A stretch of 64,000 nucleotides of DNA from Actinokineospora enzanensis DSM 44649 (lineage in GTDB: Bacteria > Actinomycetota > Actinomycetes > Mycobacteriales > Pseudonocardiaceae): NCBI RefSeq assembly GCF_000374445.1, contig NZ_KB894425.1, positions 62,001-126,000 of the forward strand, written 5' to 3'. Numbering within the stretch: the stretch's first letter is position 1; every line of letters starts with the position of its first letter. Below, one piece after another: positions 2,078 to 62,099 of this stretch. Position numbers and translations under genes: made by a program. Under the pieces are notes generated by a model. It was not told the DNA's origin. It made no database searches and worked only from the letters and a program-made list of their open reading frames with translations.

Positions 2078-3187
2078 CGCGTAGGAGATCAGGAACTCGA
2101 CCGCTTCCGCGGTGTCGTCGGTGATCAGTATCCACCGTTCGGCAGGACGCCCGGCCGCGAGCTTGCGCACCAATGGCGCGGCCGGGACGTCCTCGGTCCA
2201 GAACCGGGTGCCGAGGAATATCATCGGCGCCGCCGGACCGACCGAACCGTAGTGGTTCTGCGTGTAATCCTGGAATACTTCCTGCACCGTCCCGGCGCTG
2301 CCCGGGGTATAGACGATCCCGCCCGTGGCCACGGTCAGCAGACCTTCCTCGCGGACGGAGTTGGCGAAGTACTTCGCGTGCAACTCGCAGAACGGGTTCG
2401 GCGGTTCGTGACCGTAGAACCAGGTCGGTATGCCAATCGTGCGGGCGGTCGGGTGGGCGGGCAGGTCCACCGCGAGGCCCGCGGCGAGCCAGCGGCCGAT
2501 CTCGGCGGCGTCCACGGTCGCGCCACTGGCGAACCGGGGCGCCGCCGCCAGCCCGGCCAGCACGTCGTCCACTGTGGACCTATCGGTGAGCCGGACCCCC
2601 AGCGGCACGGCCTCCATCGCACCCGGGCCACCGCCGGTCAGCACGGTGAAACCCGCCTTGCCCAGCAGCACGCCGAGCTCCACCGCGTCCCGGTACCCGG
2701 CGGAGTCGCGGGTCAGCGCGTGGCCGCCCATCACCGCCACCGGCAGGCCGGTGAGCACCTCGTTCAACGCCTCGGTGATGCCGTGGTCGTGCAGCCGCTC
2801 GGCCAGCGCGTGCAACGGGTCCGGCCGCGCGCCCCGGGCGCGGGTGTGCTGGTAGATCCGCGCGTCCGGTGTGTCCGCATAGGACTCTGGGCGTGCCGGG
2901 TCGAAACCCGCGAACAGCTCCGCGCAGGTGTAGAGGCGTGACCGGTACACATCGTGCGGTAGACCGGGCACGATCGGGAACAACAGGGCACCCGCCGCGT
3001 GCGCGCGTCGCTGGGTCTCCGGGCGGAGTGTGCAGCCCAGGAAGAGCGCGCCGTCCAGGGCAGTGCGCAGCAACTGGTCGACCTCGGGATCGGTGAGATC
3101 CAGGCTGATCAGCGTCACCCGGATCAGGTCCCGGCCCGCGGCCCGGTGACGGCGCAGCATGTCCACATCGGTGATCTCGATCCGCAC
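2066..3187 (-). CDS. LOG-family Rossmann-fold protein
   Basis: A 373-residue protein. The C-terminal two-thirds is a LOG/lysine-decarboxylase-like fold: LTGGGPGAMEA (the GGGxG phosphate loop followed by the catalytic-region glutamate) and TPGSAGTVQE, the counterpart of the PGGxGTxxE signature of cytokinin-activating LOG enzymes. Known LOGs release free cytokinin from the riboside monophosphate or act as nucleotide phosphoribohydrolases. This protein is larger than the roughly 190-residue LOGs because of an N-terminal extension of about 130 residues, so it belongs to the long subgroup, whose substrate is not settled. GTG 3187 is favoured by a TAGGCT hexamer six bases upstream, implying a leaderless message. 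Confidence 0.75.
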   Translation of the reverse strand: MRIEITDVDMLRRHRAAGRDLIRVTLISLDLTDPEVDQLLRTALDGALFLGCTLRPETQRRAHAAGALLFPIVPGLPHDVYRSRLYTCAELFAGFDPARPESYADTPDARIYQHTRARGARPDPLHALAERLHDHGITEALNEVLTGLPVAVMGGHALTRDSAGYRDAVELGVLLGKAGFTVLTGGGPGAMEAVPLGVRLTDRSTVDDVLAGLAAAPRFASGATVDAAEIGRWLAAGLAVDLPAHPTARTIGIPTWFYGHEPPNPFCELHAKYFANSVREEGLLTVATGGIVYTPGSAGTVQEVFQDYTQNHYGSVGPAAPMIFLGTRFWTEDVPAAPLVRKLAAGRPAERWILITDDTAEAVEFLISYASVQ

Positions 3188-3192
3188 GTCGG

Positions 3193-3199
3193 TAGCCTA
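3193..3199. promoter_or_regulatory. Overlapping divergent -10 elements
   Basis: The string GTAGCCTAC reads as TAGCCT on the plus strand (3193-3198) and TAGGCT on the minus strand (3194-3199). The minus element lies six bases before the GTG of the LOG gene (leaderless). The plus element lies 32 bases before the SRPBCC start, which has a short leader with a GGAG site. One shared A+T core would serve both directions. Confidence 0.5.
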
Positions 3200-3230
3200 C
3201 GGAGACCCGGTCGCCGACGTACGGAGAACC

Positions 3231-3665
3231 ATGAACCAGGTGCAGGCGCTCGCCGAGCGCACCATCGCCGCCCCGGTCGAGCGGGTCCGGGCCGCGGTCG
3301 CCGACTACGTTGGCGTGCGCGCGCGGATCCTCAGCCCGCACTACGGCGAGTACGAGGTGCGGTCGGGCGGGATCGGCGCGGGCACCGTCGTGCACTGGCG
3401 GCTCCAGGCCACCAGCAAGCGGGTGCGGGACTGCCTCATCGAGGTGAGTGAACCCACGCCGGGCAGCCTGGTCGAGACCGACCGCAACTCGACGCTCATC
3501 ACGACCTGGACGGTCGAGGGCAACCAGAACACCTCGACCGTGCGCGTGGCCACCACCTGGGAAGGCGCCAACGGCATCGGCGGGTTCTTCGAGCGGCTGT
3601 TCGCCCCGGCCGGTCTCAAGCGCATCCACGACCAGGTGCTGGCGAACCTGGCCAGGGAGCTCTAG
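3231..3665 (+). CDS. SRPBCC-fold (polyketide cyclase/START-like) protein
   Basis: A 144-residue single-domain protein with the SRPBCC pattern: an N-terminal strand starting ERTIAAPVERV, a long central beta region and a C-terminal amphipathic helix (FFERLFAPAGLKRIHDQVL). Members bind hydrophobic ligands; no catalytic residue is diagnostic here. ATG 3231 is chosen for the ACGGAG site before it; an upstream start at 3159 would overlap the divergent LOG gene. The stop TAG (3663-3665) is part of the CTAG target duplication of the adjacent insertion sequence, so the reading frame survived the insertion intact. Confidence 0.75.
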   Translation: MNQVQALAERTIAAPVERVRAAVADYVGVRARILSPHYGEYEVRSGGIGAGTVVHWRLQATSKRVRDCLIEVSEPTPGSLVETDRNSTLITTWTVEGNQNTSTVRVATTWEGANGIGGFFERLFAPAGLKRIHDQVLANLAREL

Positions 3666-3680
3666 CTTGAGTTTTAACCT
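3666..3680 (+). repeat. Left terminal inverted repeat of the IS
   Basis: CTTGAGTTTTAACCT, exactly complementary to 5236-5250. It is preceded by CTAG. Confidence 0.88.
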
Positions 3681-3715
3681 CTGAGCTGCTGGGTGAGACC
3701 CTGGTTGATCATGAG

Positions 3716-3774
3716 TGAAGCCCTTGGTTGATTCTTCTTCTTGCGACAGACGAAGATCGAGACCAAGGGCTTCA
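3716..3774 (+). promoter_or_regulatory. Stem-loop in the IS leader, before the transposase start
   Basis: TGAAGCCCTTGGT (3716-3728) and ACCAAGGGCTTCA (3762-3774) form a perfect 13-bp stem with a 33-base loop, ending 10 bases before the GTG start. TTGATCA occurs outside both arms (3705-3711 and 3776-3782). In other IS families such hairpins block read-through expression from neighbouring promoters by terminating transcription or hiding the ribosome site; that role here is inference. Confidence 0.6.
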
Positions 3775-3784
3775 GTTGATCAGT

Positions 3785-5242
3785 GTGCACCATGCTCACG
3801 GCACGAGCGTGTCCGGGGAGTTGTCCGGGTTGCGGCAGGAGTTCTACCGATGCCTGCTCACACGCGCGGACGCGTTGTTCGAGCTGACAGACGCGGTGTT
3901 GTGCGCGGACGGGCCGGTGCGGTCGGTCGCTGAGCTGTCGCTGGCGGGTGAGCATCGTCGTGGTCATGGCAGCGGCTATGCCGCGCTGGCCCAGGGGCGG
4001 ATCGACGTCGACCGGTTACGCACCGCGCTCACCGCGGTGTCACTGCCGCGTGCCGCTGACGGGCGGTTGGTGCTGGCGGTGGACGTGACCTGCTGGCTGC
4101 GTCCGGAAGCGCACACCTGTCCGCAGCGGATCCTGTGTCACACCTACGGCCGGGGCAAGGACCAGCACATGATGGTGCCGGGCTGGCCCTACTCGGTCGT
4201 CGTCGCACTGGAAACCGGGCGCGGTTCGTGGACTGCGCCGCTGGACGCGGTCCGCCTCGCACCCGGCGACAATACCGCGAGCGTGACCGCCCGGCAGATC
4301 CGCGACGTGGTGGTCCGCCTGATGACCGCCGGGCATTGGCGGCCGGGAGACCCGGACATCCTGCTGGTCGCCGACGCCGGCTACGACGGACCCCGGCTGG
4401 CCCACGTCCTGGCCGACCTGCCGATCACTGTGCTGGTCCGGATGCGCTCCGACCGGGTCCTGCACCGCCCGGTCCCACTACAGCCGCCCGGCACGATGGG
4501 CAGGCCCCGCCGCCACGGCGGCGAGTTCGCTTTCGGCGACCAGGCCACCTGGGGCACACCGGATATCACCATCGAGACCACGACCCGGCTTTATGGTCCC
4601 GCGCTGATCCGGGTCTGGGACCGGCTGCACCCCAGGTTGACCCACCGCATCGCCTGGGCCGACCACGACGGGACCCTGCCCATCCTGGAAGGCACCGTGA
4701 TCCGACTCGATGTCGAGCGCCTGCCCTCGGGCGCGATCCCGAAACCCGTGTGGCTCTGGCACTGTCGCACCGGCCTGGACCAGGCCGAGGTCGATCTGGC
4801 CTGGCAGGCGTTCCTGCGCCGCTTCGACATCGAGCACACCTTCCGCATGCTCAAGCAGACCCTCGGCTGGACCACCCCGAAACTGCGCTCACCCGAGGCC
4901 GCGGACCGCTGGACCTGGCTGCTGATCACCGCCTACACCCAACTCCGCCTCGCCCGCGACCTCACCGAAGACCTGCGCCGGCCTTGGGAGAAACCACGAT
5001 CAGCCCAGCGACTGAGCCCGGCACGAGTCCGCCGGGGGTTTCGGAACCTACGCTCGCGACTCACCTGCCCGGCCGCCGTCCCGAAACCCTCACGCCCAGG
5101 CCCAGGACGTCCCGCTGGAACACCCAACCACCGGCCCGCCACACGACACGACGTCCACCCCGTCACCAGCACCAACAAACAGAAGACCAAGCGCGGCAAC
5201 AAGAAGACATCCAACAATCCACAGCCCCGCCGAACAGGTTAA
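3785..5242 (+). CDS. IS4/IS701-superfamily DDE transposase
   Basis: A 485-residue transposase that would catalyse cut-and-paste movement of the surrounding element. The DDE triad is visible: Asp100 in LVLAVDVT, Asp197 in LLVADAGYDG, and Glu350 in FDIEHTFRMLKQTLGW, the last resembling the YREK-type region of IS4 relatives. The C-terminus is long, basic and proline-rich. I start at GTG 3785 (VHHAHGTSVSGELS) because conservation begins there; a TTG at 3728 would lie inside the leader hairpin. The frame is intact from start to stop, so the element may be active. It ends only 8 bases before the right element boundary, with the stop inside the right inverted repeat. Confidence 0.85.
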   Translation: MHHAHGTSVSGELSGLRQEFYRCLLTRADALFELTDAVLCADGPVRSVAELSLAGEHRRGHGSGYAALAQGRIDVDRLRTALTAVSLPRAADGRLVLAVDVTCWLRPEAHTCPQRILCHTYGRGKDQHMMVPGWPYSVVVALETGRGSWTAPLDAVRLAPGDNTASVTARQIRDVVVRLMTAGHWRPGDPDILLVADAGYDGPRLAHVLADLPITVLVRMRSDRVLHRPVPLQPPGTMGRPRRHGGEFAFGDQATWGTPDITIETTTRLYGPALIRVWDRLHPRLTHRIAWADHDGTLPILEGTVIRLDVERLPSGAIPKPVWLWHCRTGLDQAEVDLAWQAFLRRFDIEHTFRMLKQTLGWTTPKLRSPEAADRWTWLLITAYTQLRLARDLTEDLRRPWEKPRSAQRLSPARVRRGFRNLRSRLTCPAAVPKPSRPGPGRPAGTPNHRPATRHDVHPVTSTNKQKTKRGNKKTSNNPQPRRTG

Positions 5243-5250
5243 AACTCAAG
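5236..5250 (-). repeat. Right terminal inverted repeat of the IS
   Basis: AGGTTAAAACTCAAG, exactly complementary to 3666-3680 and followed by the second CTAG. The transposase stop codon (5240-5242) lies within it. Confidence 0.88.
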
Positions 5251-5251
5251 C

Positions 5252-5417
5252 TAGGCGCTGTCCTGTAAGTCCGGCACGCGCTATCCGCGCCCGCGCGGCC
5301 TCTGGCCGCACGGGCGGAAAGCCCAAGTACAACCCGGTACGTGCGGCTTCCCGCCCGCACGCCCAGAGGCCACGCGGATCACGGATCTCGCGCACCAGAC
5401 TTACAGGACAGCGCCTA
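5252..5417. mobile_element. 162-bp palindromic MITE flanked by TA
   Basis: The ends are a perfect 18-bp inverted repeat: GGCGCTGTCCTGTAAGTC at 5254-5271 and its complement at 5398-5415. TA lies directly outside on both sides (5252-5253 and 5416-5417), within CTAG on each side, as expected for a 2-bp TA duplication (IS630- or IS427/IS5-type behaviour). The arms remain imperfectly complementary nearly to the centre (both contain GGCCTCTGG-like blocks and end in GTAC), so the transcript would fold into one long hairpin. It has no coding capacity and no transposase with matching ends is in the window, so it must be mobilised in trans or be a relic. Confidence 0.75.
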
Positions 5418-6602
5418 GAGCAGGGGCGTGGTGGGCGGCAGGCCGCACAGGGCGCGGCCGTAGTGCTCGATGCCGGTGTTCGGCAGCATCGACGCGTGCG
5501 TGGACAGCGCCTGCACGTCCCGCGCCACCTGCTGGATCGGCATCCGCTCGCCGATACCGGTCGCGCCCGCCGCGTTGCGCAGCATTTCGACGGCCTCCGT
5601 GCAGAGCCGGACCGCGTAGCTGATCAGGCCCCACACCCTGGGCTTGTCCTCGGGCCCGTACGGCGCGCCGGTCTCCCGGCGGTCCTGCATCAGCGCGGCG
5701 GCCTGGTAGGACAGTGCCTCGGCGGCGTCGATCTTCATCCGGGCCTCGGCGGTGACCTGGTGGGTGATCGGCGCCTCGCGGTGCGACGGGTATCCGGTGT
5801 AGGCGATCGGGCCGCGCTCGGGCAGCCGGTCCACGTGCAGCTCGTAGGCGTGCTTGGCCATGCCGATCAGCGAACCGGCGGCGCTGGTGAGCAGGTAGGG
5901 CAGCAGCGGGGCGTGGTAGAGGCCGGATTCGGCGTTGCGGGCGCTCGCCGGGTTCTGGCTGAGCACGCGCGCCATCGACAGCGCCTTCACGGTGGGGACG
6001 AAGATGTCCGTGCCGCACATCGTGTTGCTGCCCGAACCCTGCAGGCCGCTGACGAACCAGTCGTCCTCGACACTCAGCTCGCGGGTGGGGATGACGAAGT
6101 GCATGACCTCGGGCTCGTCGCCCGCCAGCACCGCGGGCTGGACGCACCAGGTGGCGTCGAGGCAGCCGCTGTTGAACGGCCAGCGCCCGGAGACCAGGTA
6201 GCCGCCGTCGGTGCGCACGGCCCGGCCCGCCGGGATCAGCGTGGCGCAGTGGAAGGCCTCGGGGTCGGCGAAGACCTCGTCCTGGACCTCGTCGGGGAAC
6301 AGCGACAGCAGGAAGACCGTGTCCGTGTAGATCGTGCTCACCCAGGCGGTCGAACCGCAGCCGCGGGCGACCTCGATATACGCCGCCAGTTTGGTCCGGA
6401 TATCGGATTCGGCACCACCGAACGCACGGGGCAGGGCGATTGTGGCGAGGCCCGCTTCGCGAAGTGCTTTCAAGTTCTCCGCCGGGACGCGACGCTCCCT
6501 GGCACAGCGCTCCGCGTTCGTCCGCAGCAGCGGGACCAGGTCGGCGGCCCGCCGGACGAGCTCGACGGAGGCCTGCTCGGGGTGGCCGGGGATGTGCGTC
6601 AC
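5415..6602 (-). CDS. HsaA-like flavin-dependent monooxygenase / acyl-CoA dehydrogenase type 2
   Basis: A 395-residue protein of the acyl-CoA-dehydrogenase-fold flavin monooxygenases (group D), the family of HsaA, which hydroxylates a secosteroid phenol in cholesterol breakdown. Family signatures are CGSTAWVST, the SGRWPFNSGC loop and VSGLQGSGSNTM, followed by the helical C-terminal domain. These enzymes need a separate flavin reductase, and none is adjacent. GTG 6602 is chosen for a CGGAGG site just upstream; a longer reading frame to 7121 is really the remains of another gene. The substrate is unknown. Its stop (complement 5415-5417) shares the CTAG used by the MITE, so the gene was not damaged by the insertions. 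Confidence 0.8.
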   Translation of the reverse strand: MTHIPGHPEQASVELVRRAADLVPLLRTNAERCARERRVPAENLKALREAGLATIALPRAFGGAESDIRTKLAAYIEVARGCGSTAWVSTIYTDTVFLLSLFPDEVQDEVFADPEAFHCATLIPAGRAVRTDGGYLVSGRWPFNSGCLDATWCVQPAVLAGDEPEVMHFVIPTRELSVEDDWFVSGLQGSGSNTMCGTDIFVPTVKALSMARVLSQNPASARNAESGLYHAPLLPYLLTSAAGSLIGMAKHAYELHVDRLPERGPIAYTGYPSHREAPITHQVTAEARMKIDAAEALSYQAAALMQDRRETGAPYGPEDKPRVWGLISYAVRLCTEAVEMLRNAAGATGIGERMPIQQVARDVQALSTHASMLPNTGIEHYGRALCGLPPTTPLL

Positions 6603-6756
6603 GACGGTGCCTCCGAAAAACAATTCCCCAGTCGGCCATTTTTCGGCAACACCATCCCACAGCGATTCCGGGAAAAGGCTGGACCGCGGTGGATCGCACC
6701 CGAATGCAGTCCGGCGGACACCCGTGGTGATCACGGACCGGCGGCGGCTGCGCCGA

Positions 6757-61739: not shown

Positions 61740-62099
61740 GTGGACGAGGACAAGCCGGGACGGGTTGCCGAGCCCGCCGCGGACCGCGTGGACGCCGCCG
61801 ACGAGACCGTCGGCGAGACTACTGGTGAGACCGCTGCGGGCATCGACACGCTGGGCCGTGACCTGGCGCTTTACACCGCACTGCGGGTCGTGCTGGTGGC
61901 CGCGGTGGCGGTCGTCCTCGTGCTGTTCGACGTCCCCCTGCTGGTCGCGGTCGCGGTCGGCCTGGTCGTCGGTTTCCCGCTGGGCCTGCTGCTGTTCCGC
62001 GGCCTGAACACGCGCATCACGGCCGGGTTGTCCGTGCGGCACGCGGCCCGCAACGCCGAGCGCGACCAGCTGCGTGCCGAGCTGCGCGGGGACGCCTGA
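61740..62099 (+). CDS. DUF4229 two-helix membrane protein
   Basis: 119 residues. Acidic N-terminus, then two hydrophobic segments (about 44-62 and 66-85) and a basic C-terminal helix rich in Arg and Glu (RHAARNAERDQLRAELRG). This is the DUF4229 pattern found near menaquinone genes in actinobacteria; function unknown. Confidence 0.78.
   Translation: MDEDKPGRVAEPAADRVDAADETVGETTGETAAGIDTLGRDLALYTALRVVLVAAVAVVLVLFDVPLLVAVAVGLVVGFPLGLLLFRGLNTRITAGLSVRHAARNAERDQLRAELRGDA

Follow-up and report, generated by a model that had tools for sequence, protein, structure and literature searches.

How can two mobile elements come to lie between the ends of two convergent genes when neither protein appears to have gained or lost a residue? 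The question is raised by a locus of Actinokineospora enzanensis DSM 44649 (contig NZ_KB894425.1), contained in a 64,000-nucleotide stretch (positions 62,001 to 126,000; the window), in which an SRPBCC / polyketide cyclase-like gene and an HsaA-like gene run towards each other and are separated by an insertion sequence (IS) and a miniature inverted-repeat transposable element (MITE). The two elements, different in kind, are stacked in one CTAG that was formerly the shared stop of the two genes. This is confirmed by the layout of positions 3662-5418, where CTAG, IS, CTAG, MITE and CTAG follow one another and the first G and last C of the MITE are common with the flanking CTAGs. The terminal repeats of the IS read CTTGAGTTTTAACCT and AGGTTAAAACTCAAG, and the arms of the MITE are 86% complementary over 37 bp, flanking CTAG included. 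Excision of both elements in silico yields GAGCTCTAGAGCAG, in which the TAG stops of the SRPBCC and HsaA-like genes fall on a single palindromic CTAG. Since this reconstructed junction restores both TAG stops, neither protein would have been altered by a residue; the genes of the nearest relatives end differently. The original prediction had described such a nested arrangement, and a direct check of the sequence showed its coordinates, nesting, two duplications and stop-stop palindrome all to be right. It is highly probable that two unrelated CTAG-recognizing transposases have used one site, the ancestral shared stop of two convergent genes.

Table 1. Features of the stacked locus (positions within the window).
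Feature	Position	Strand	Remarks
SRPBCC / polyketide cyclase-like gene	3171..3665	+	PF10604, 62.9 bits; TAG stop 3663-3665 within left CTAG; longest open reading frame from 3159
Left CTAG	3662..3665		Carries the SRPBCC stop; duplicated as target site of the IS
Insertion sequence, 1,585 bp	3666..5250	+	15-bp perfect terminal inverted repeats; 4-bp CTAG duplication
DDE transposase, NF041680 family	3809..5242	+	Longest open reading frame from 3728; TAA stop within right terminal repeat
Middle CTAG	5251..5254		Right-hand copy of the IS duplication; TA serves as left duplication of the MITE, G as base 1 of the MITE
MITE, 162 bp	5254..5415		GGCGCTGTCCTGTAAG ends; single long hairpin; TA target duplication
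Right CTAG	5415..5418		Final C of the MITE, then its TA duplication and a single flanking base; contains the minus-strand gene's stop
HsaA-like gene (flavin monooxygenase / acyl-CoA dehydrogenase fold)	5415..6623	-	PF08028; TAG stop is plus-strand CTA 5415-5417

The word in which both elements lie is scarce. In 464 kb of the A. enzanensis genome, CTAG was found 86 times, against 1,201 occurrences expected from base composition (about 14-fold rarer) and 313 from a Markov estimate, in agreement with the rarity that had been claimed for it. With the three CTAGs of the locus removed, the 83 background CTAGs of this genome, of which 87.7% of the bases are coding, comprised 26 in single stops, 2 in shared stops, 46 in intergenic DNA and 9 in coding sequence; the figure of 2 shared stops comes from a recount, and the statistical tests used 3, which is on the cautious side. 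In other species, 156 CTAGs from the flanks of MITE loci were divided into 22 single stops, 2 shared stops, 87 intergenic and 45 coding sites, and 130 CTAGs from other stretches into 16, 1, 70 and 43, respectively. Because CTAG is strongly avoided in the coding sequence of A. enzanensis, the recognized word would lead mostly to gene ends and intergenic DNA, and selection would remove most of the remaining insertions.

The smaller element has the properties of a MITE: it is short, lacks a transposase, possesses long inverted arms and is present in many copies. In the A. enzanensis genome (G000), roughly two dozen places carry it in full or in part, three being duplicate contig ends; 9 of the 15 other Actinokineospora genomes gave matches, and the family is diverged. 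The copies studied were taken among the best matches listed and are not an exhaustive survey. A total of 82 loci were classified; 32 without a clean TA on both sides (4 in the own genome and 28 in others) and three duplicate contig ends were dropped and the window was added, which gave 48 clean sites (16 in the own genome and 32 in other species). A locus cut by a contig start (L018) was left out of the classification, and L165 and L189, look-alikes of L003 and L175, were dropped from the Cochran-Mantel-Haenszel (CMH) tests and from the motif and convergent-context counts. The three merged sites appear twice, since the same MITE and about 100 bp of its flank are found at the starts and ends of contigs (C46/C48, C8/C43 and C13/C54; loci L004/L005, L009/L010 and L013/L014). 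A pattern search for the MITE ends across the genus, allowing three mismatches, gave clearly more places than a backward control in G000 and G015 and modestly more or no more elsewhere; its places were listed for few genomes and were excluded from the counts.

Only the TA is duplicated by the MITE, as had been proposed. The targets of 46 copies were CTAG (38), TTAG (2), CTAA (2), TTAA (1), GTAA (2) and CTAC (1), so that 43 of 46 conform to YTAR. At the non-CTAG targets (GTAA, CTAA, TTAG, CTAC and TTAA; eight copies in the genus and three in G045, a member of another genus of the family), TA alone was duplicated; the outer bases of CTAG therefore belong to the element, and a 4-bp CTAG duplication for the MITE is ruled out. 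The first base of the element is G and the last is C in 45 of the 47 clean copies besides the window, and consequently TAG is rebuilt, through TA+G and C+TA, whichever side a gene enters from. The two exceptions, L190 and L192, start with A and rebuild TAA instead of TAG on one side.

The 48 clean MITE sites were sorted into 22 single stops, 9 shared stops, 17 intergenic sites and no coding site, and 31 of the copies thus lie exactly in a stop codon; L174 and L190 (and L299 in G045) were counted as stop sites although they overlap an opposite-strand gene call. When only CTAG sites were considered and look-alikes were dropped, the own genome contributed 9 single stops, 1 shared stop and 5 intergenic sites, and the other species 7, 7 and 9. 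Stop rather than intergenic CTAGs were favored by MITE copies relative to background (CMH p = 7e-6; p = 0.05 in the own genome alone), and so were shared stops relative to other noncoding CTAGs (CMH p = 2e-7). Outside the own genome, shared stops accounted for 7 of 23 CTAG-sited copies versus 3 of 286 background CTAGs (p = 5e-7). In G045, six copies were examined, three of which showed a clean TA, two in shared stops and one in a single stop. Both genes at the shared stop of the window contain Pfam domains, as do both genes at five of the eight other shared-stop sites and one gene at the remaining three.

We give even chances to pure survival bias, according to which CTAG transposition is blind to gene context and only harmless insertions are seen, as the explanation of this distribution. 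A shared convergent stop is the one place that spares protein, promoter, ribosome-binding site and operon; none of 40 CTAG-sited MITE copies is in coding sequence versus 54 of 239 background CTAGs (p = 1.3e-4), and convergent contexts are over-represented (19 of 41 MITE sites versus 37 of 159 in the background, p = 0.006). Noncoding sites between convergent genes should nevertheless be about equally harmless, yet within convergent contexts shared stops made up 8 of 17 MITE sites versus 5 of 54 background CTAGs (p = 0.0015), and tandem single-stop sites are used too (10 of 46 MITE sites). The idea that such a stop is a safe site agrees with the absence of coding insertions among the 48 clean MITE sites and the 27 IS sites with 4-bp duplications described below, with L174 and L190 overlapping an opposite-strand gene call as stated.

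The larger element is intact, and its transposase is present as a single copy in the own genome. With 567.9 bits against a cut-off of 440, the transposase belongs to the NF041680 family. The label 'IS701-like' in the original prediction was loose: the two matching NCBIfam IS701 models gave 79.9 bits (cut-off 170) and 32.1 bits (cut-off 150), so the curated cut-offs are missed, and the likeness to IS701 consists of a DDE transposase, weak similarity and a 4-bp duplication. Duplications of 4 or 5 bp, which passages of PMC8024623 cite for the IS701 family, fit that label, and for the two IS701 elements studied there duplications of 4-9 bp and a target without consensus are given (PMC8024623). Among 75 examined loci of IS relatives, 41 had no duplication and 34 had a clean one, of 4 bp in 27 and of 5 bp in 7. 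The 4-bp duplications were CTAG in 25 cases and TTAG and TTAA in one each, and these 27 relatives back the 4-bp CTAG duplication of the IS in the window; since the target of L109 is TTAG, a mere TA duplication is excluded for that locus. With L095 and L097, which repeat L061 and L077, set aside and the seven 5-bp sites left unclassed, there were 25 unique sites, 11 in stops, 14 intergenic and none coding. The 5-bp duplications belong to distant relatives (L112-L115, L118, L122 and L131) and read CTGAA, TTGAG, CTCAG, ATGAG, CTAAG, CTTAA and CTGAG, mostly a CTNAG-like word with TGA or TAA on one strand; the copy at L112 lies in a TGA stop.

Stacking is recurrent. Seven of the 25 unique IS relatives abut the end of another element across one CTAG or TTAG, and the window represents the eighth case. 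The abutting end is of IS5 type at L098, L101, L106, L139 and L146, recognized by the end motif alone (most weakly at L139), with L106 and L146 from one genome and running into a contig end; at L090 and L109 it belongs to a second IS of the relative's own kind. Over at least 16 bp, the end next to L101 matches that of an IS5-family element in G002 letter for letter. At L109, a 170-bp stretch with NF041680-type IS ends (L109:4437-4607) adjoins the full IS across the shared TTAG and may be a MITE of that IS. As each CTAG insertion turns one CTAG into two, a fresh target arises at a tolerated place, and elements can stack.

In the proposed history, the ancestral CTAG would have been the shared stop of the convergent SRPBCC and HsaA-like genes. 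A MITE, most likely moved by an IS5-family transposase, would have entered the TA of this CTAG, its G and C ends rebuilding TAG on both sides, and a 1.6-kb IS of the NF041680 family would have entered a CTAG with duplication of 4 bp, by which CTAG was rebuilt on both sides. The earlier statement that the order of the two events can be read from the sequence was not borne out, because an IS followed by a MITE in the TA of the right CTAG gives, letter for letter, the same string as a MITE followed by an IS in the left CTAG. The first of these orders, in which the MITE entered the right-hand CTAG of an IS already in place, is possible but the less likely of the two: it yields exactly the observed letters, whereas a diverged multicopy MITE family beside a single, intact IS favors the MITE as the first arrival without proving it.

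Natural empty sites were found for other MITE insertions. In G011, the MITE lies between an acyltransferase gene and a VIT1-family gene, and a gap-free alignment of 1,199 bp (91.9% identity) joins its empty site, as reconstructed, to the sequence of G014; in G014, the MITE-free CTAG is the shared stop of the two genes. An empty shared-stop CTAG is present at the VIT1 site in two (G014 and G004) of the 14 further genomes that have a VIT1 match, the remainder having other junctions or arrangements, and at a coaD/GNAT site, filled in G015, in 2 of 15 others (G013 and G003), G006 as the closest genome there (90% nucleotide identity) being without one. Removal of the MITE together with one TA is thus exact where it could be compared, and shared-stop CTAGs exist free of MITEs, as G014 and the other empty sites show. 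In this way, a TA duplication at 48 sites is joined by a natural empty site in G014. Beyond the MITE, the 3' end of coaD in G015 (L167; L315:1498-1512) reads CTAGGCGCTGTCCCC, resembling a MITE end; the CoaD protein of this genome carries a short tail unmatched in most orthologues, perhaps the remnant of an earlier insertion turned coding. As for the genes of the window, SRPBCC orthologues in G005, G006, G012 and G015 end in CTC-TAG as in the window and lack the elements (an HsaA-like match is absent from the fetched flank), and other SRPBCC orthologues end in TTC-TAG, TAA or TGA. The HsaA-like protein scores 215.2 bits against the HsaA model, under the cut-off of 450.

The MITE was likely moved by a transposase of the IS5 family (NF033580 / DUF4096 group). 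Insertion into YTAR is a property of the IS5 family, and the IS5-family elements of the genus, with a DUF4096 first frame, sit in CTAG, that of the own genome included, with the layout CTA/GG...CC/TAG; their fuller layout, CTA/GG..TGTCC..GGACA..CC/TAG, is similar to that of the MITE. An element from G002 scores above the cut-off of NF033580, and the ends of a decayed relative of 730 bp in G010 (TAGGCGTGTCCTGTAA and TTACAGGACACTGCCTA) come close to those of the MITE. Of seven IS5-family copies with both ends found, three (all in G002) lie in a TAG stop and four are intergenic, three of the latter on contigs that stop within the right flank. In the own genome, an element of the IS5 family, about 1,028 bp long and with CTAGGCCGTGTTTCA ends, sits in CTAG at L265, L274, L283 and L290 (C32, C41, C44 and C60), and its junction at L265 adjoins a gene stop TAG. 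No autonomous partner with the ends of the MITE was found in the own genome, where four DUF4096 places end differently. An IS630/Tc1-mariner origin, which a TA duplication by itself does not exclude, found no support, as none of 21 DDE_3 loci in 8 of 16 genomes had matching paired ends in the fetched flanks.

The excess at shared stops might also come from target choice, the transposase of the MITE preferring a longer or structured target (for instance GNCTAGNC, or convergently transcribed DNA) that is commonest at shared stops; we regard this as unlikely. G is enriched at position -3 both where the side is noncoding (23 of 44 versus 168 of 470, p = 0.03) and where it is coding (22 of 32 versus 33 of 74, p = 0.03), and the hot spots of IS5 in Escherichia coli depend on more than the tetranucleotide, according to passages of PMC5493358. 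The motif is weak, however, and G at -3 does not explain the shared-stop excess, because only 2 of the 12 MITE sites with G on both sides are shared stops; an extended palindromic target proved weak as well. More doubtful still is that the MITE has been kept at convergent ends for its usefulness as a two-way terminator or insulator whose hairpin ends or protects both transcripts: it folds as RNA into a single hairpin (-119.1 kcal/mol, z = -14.2) that both transcripts would carry since the element is nearly symmetric, and the excess falls in convergent pairs, but hairpins are usual for MITEs (in passages of PMC5896051), conservation of a filled site was seen only at two look-alike locus pairs, and tandem insertions occur too.

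Several observations weigh against reading the locus as an instance of insertion concentrated in shared stops, or against parts of that reading. In the own genome alone, shared stops make up 1 of 15 CTAG-sited MITE copies and the excess is absent. The original prediction had proposed comparing shared-stop CTAG insertions of IS relatives with chance; among these relatives shared stops numbered 0 of 25 besides the window, and the excess was seen among MITE copies outside the own genome. The site-class tests were post hoc, and the genes were called with our own codon-usage caller, whose training set was the own genome and which treated MITE sites and background in the same way. An empty site of the SRPBCC/HsaA-like locus itself was not seen among the genomes searched. 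In the search of 100 genomes, own genome included, an HsaA-like match at E 1e-120 or better occurred in only two others, G013 and G001. These two, of the 15 other Actinokineospora genomes, retain the HsaA-like gene next to an SRPBCC gene and carry no element there. G013 has TGA and TGA stops, back to back (GAACTCGGCGCCTGATCAGGCCAGCAGC), with identities of 64% (HsaA-like) and 81%; in G001, the two genes overlap, with identities of 53% (HsaA-like) and 46%. Being distant, these two genomes neither confirm nor refute the reconstructed junction. Also, the junctions of most remaining relatives differ at both loci for which natural empty sites were found. Regarding the source of the MITE, the IS5 copies of the own genome end in GGCCGTGTTTCA, unlike the MITE, and among the IS5-family elements of the genus no autonomous element with its exact ends and no clear internal similarity were found. 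For a use of the hairpin, the window offers no T-run 3' of it. Taken as a series, the tail-to-tail overlap of tens of bases in G001 (L058), the abutting genes in G013 and the shared CTAG of the window depict a drifting convergent junction.

A wider reading combines several claims: the IS5-type Y-T-A-R words would be the four possible shared convergent stops, and the MITE, whose G and C ends rebuild TAG for both genes, would be a stop-codon-addressed transposon. Transposase recognition, these ends and the avoidance of CTAG across the genome would jointly make shared stops a preferred home that regenerates itself and can be stacked, one that two or more unrelated families of transposases exploit and in which the hairpin perhaps ends both transcripts. 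As a joint claim, this is improbable. For the persistence of mobile DNA in gene-dense genomes, the locus and its relatives offer a concrete answer that lends itself to counting: a word avoided within genes, a rebuilt stop and a new target with each insertion. Should the excess at shared stops truly be target choice, it would reveal a transposon addressed to the punctuation of the genetic code and be useful for harmless DNA insertion in actinomycetes; should it be survival, MITE copies would record which gene junctions tolerate insertion.

No account of MITEs or IS concentrated in shared convergent stops, or of unrelated elements stacking there, was found in searches of open-licence papers, judged by title and abstract opening and with ISfinder not included. 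A precedent for a stop-preserving CTAG target does exist in TnRErm46 / ISRe46 of Rhodococcus equi, the transposase of ISRe46 presumably being of IS481. Passages of PMC6794481 describe an actinobacterial element that, like those of the window, targets CTAG and preserves a stop upon insertion. TnRErm46 differs in having another transposase, a larger size, other genes as cargo and a directly repeated NCTAGN (PMC6794481), and the passages on it describe neither shared convergent stops nor a MITE or the stacking of unrelated elements. Among IS5-type elements, E. coli IS5 has a Py-T-A-Pu target, mostly CTAG, a word under-represented in bacterial genomes (passages of PMC5493358), and MITEPsy1, an IS5-like element of Pseudomonas syringae, has CTAG or YTAA as its insertion site (passages of PMC3189936). 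A 4-bp duplication is reported for both, whereas in the MITE of the window TA is duplicated and G and C are the element's own; stop-codon residence is not described in the passages on either (PMC5493358, PMC3189936). The passages of PMC2174442 give CTAA, TTAA, CTAG and TTAG as the four-base overlaps of convergent genes, so that CTAG is one of four tetramers that end two such genes; these four would correspond to the Y-T-A-R consensus of IS5, and a link to transposons is absent from those passages. QMITE2 of Coxiella burnetii, a hot spot for IS1111 in passages of PMC5896051, is likewise a MITE family serving as a landing place for an unrelated IS, but IS1111 enters the MITE itself near one end, whereas the IS of the window enters the adjacent CTAG that both elements use. 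Relative to these systems, what is new is the quantitative residence in stop codons, the surplus of shared stops seen in genomes other than the own one, and the fact that two unrelated families stack in one CTAG.

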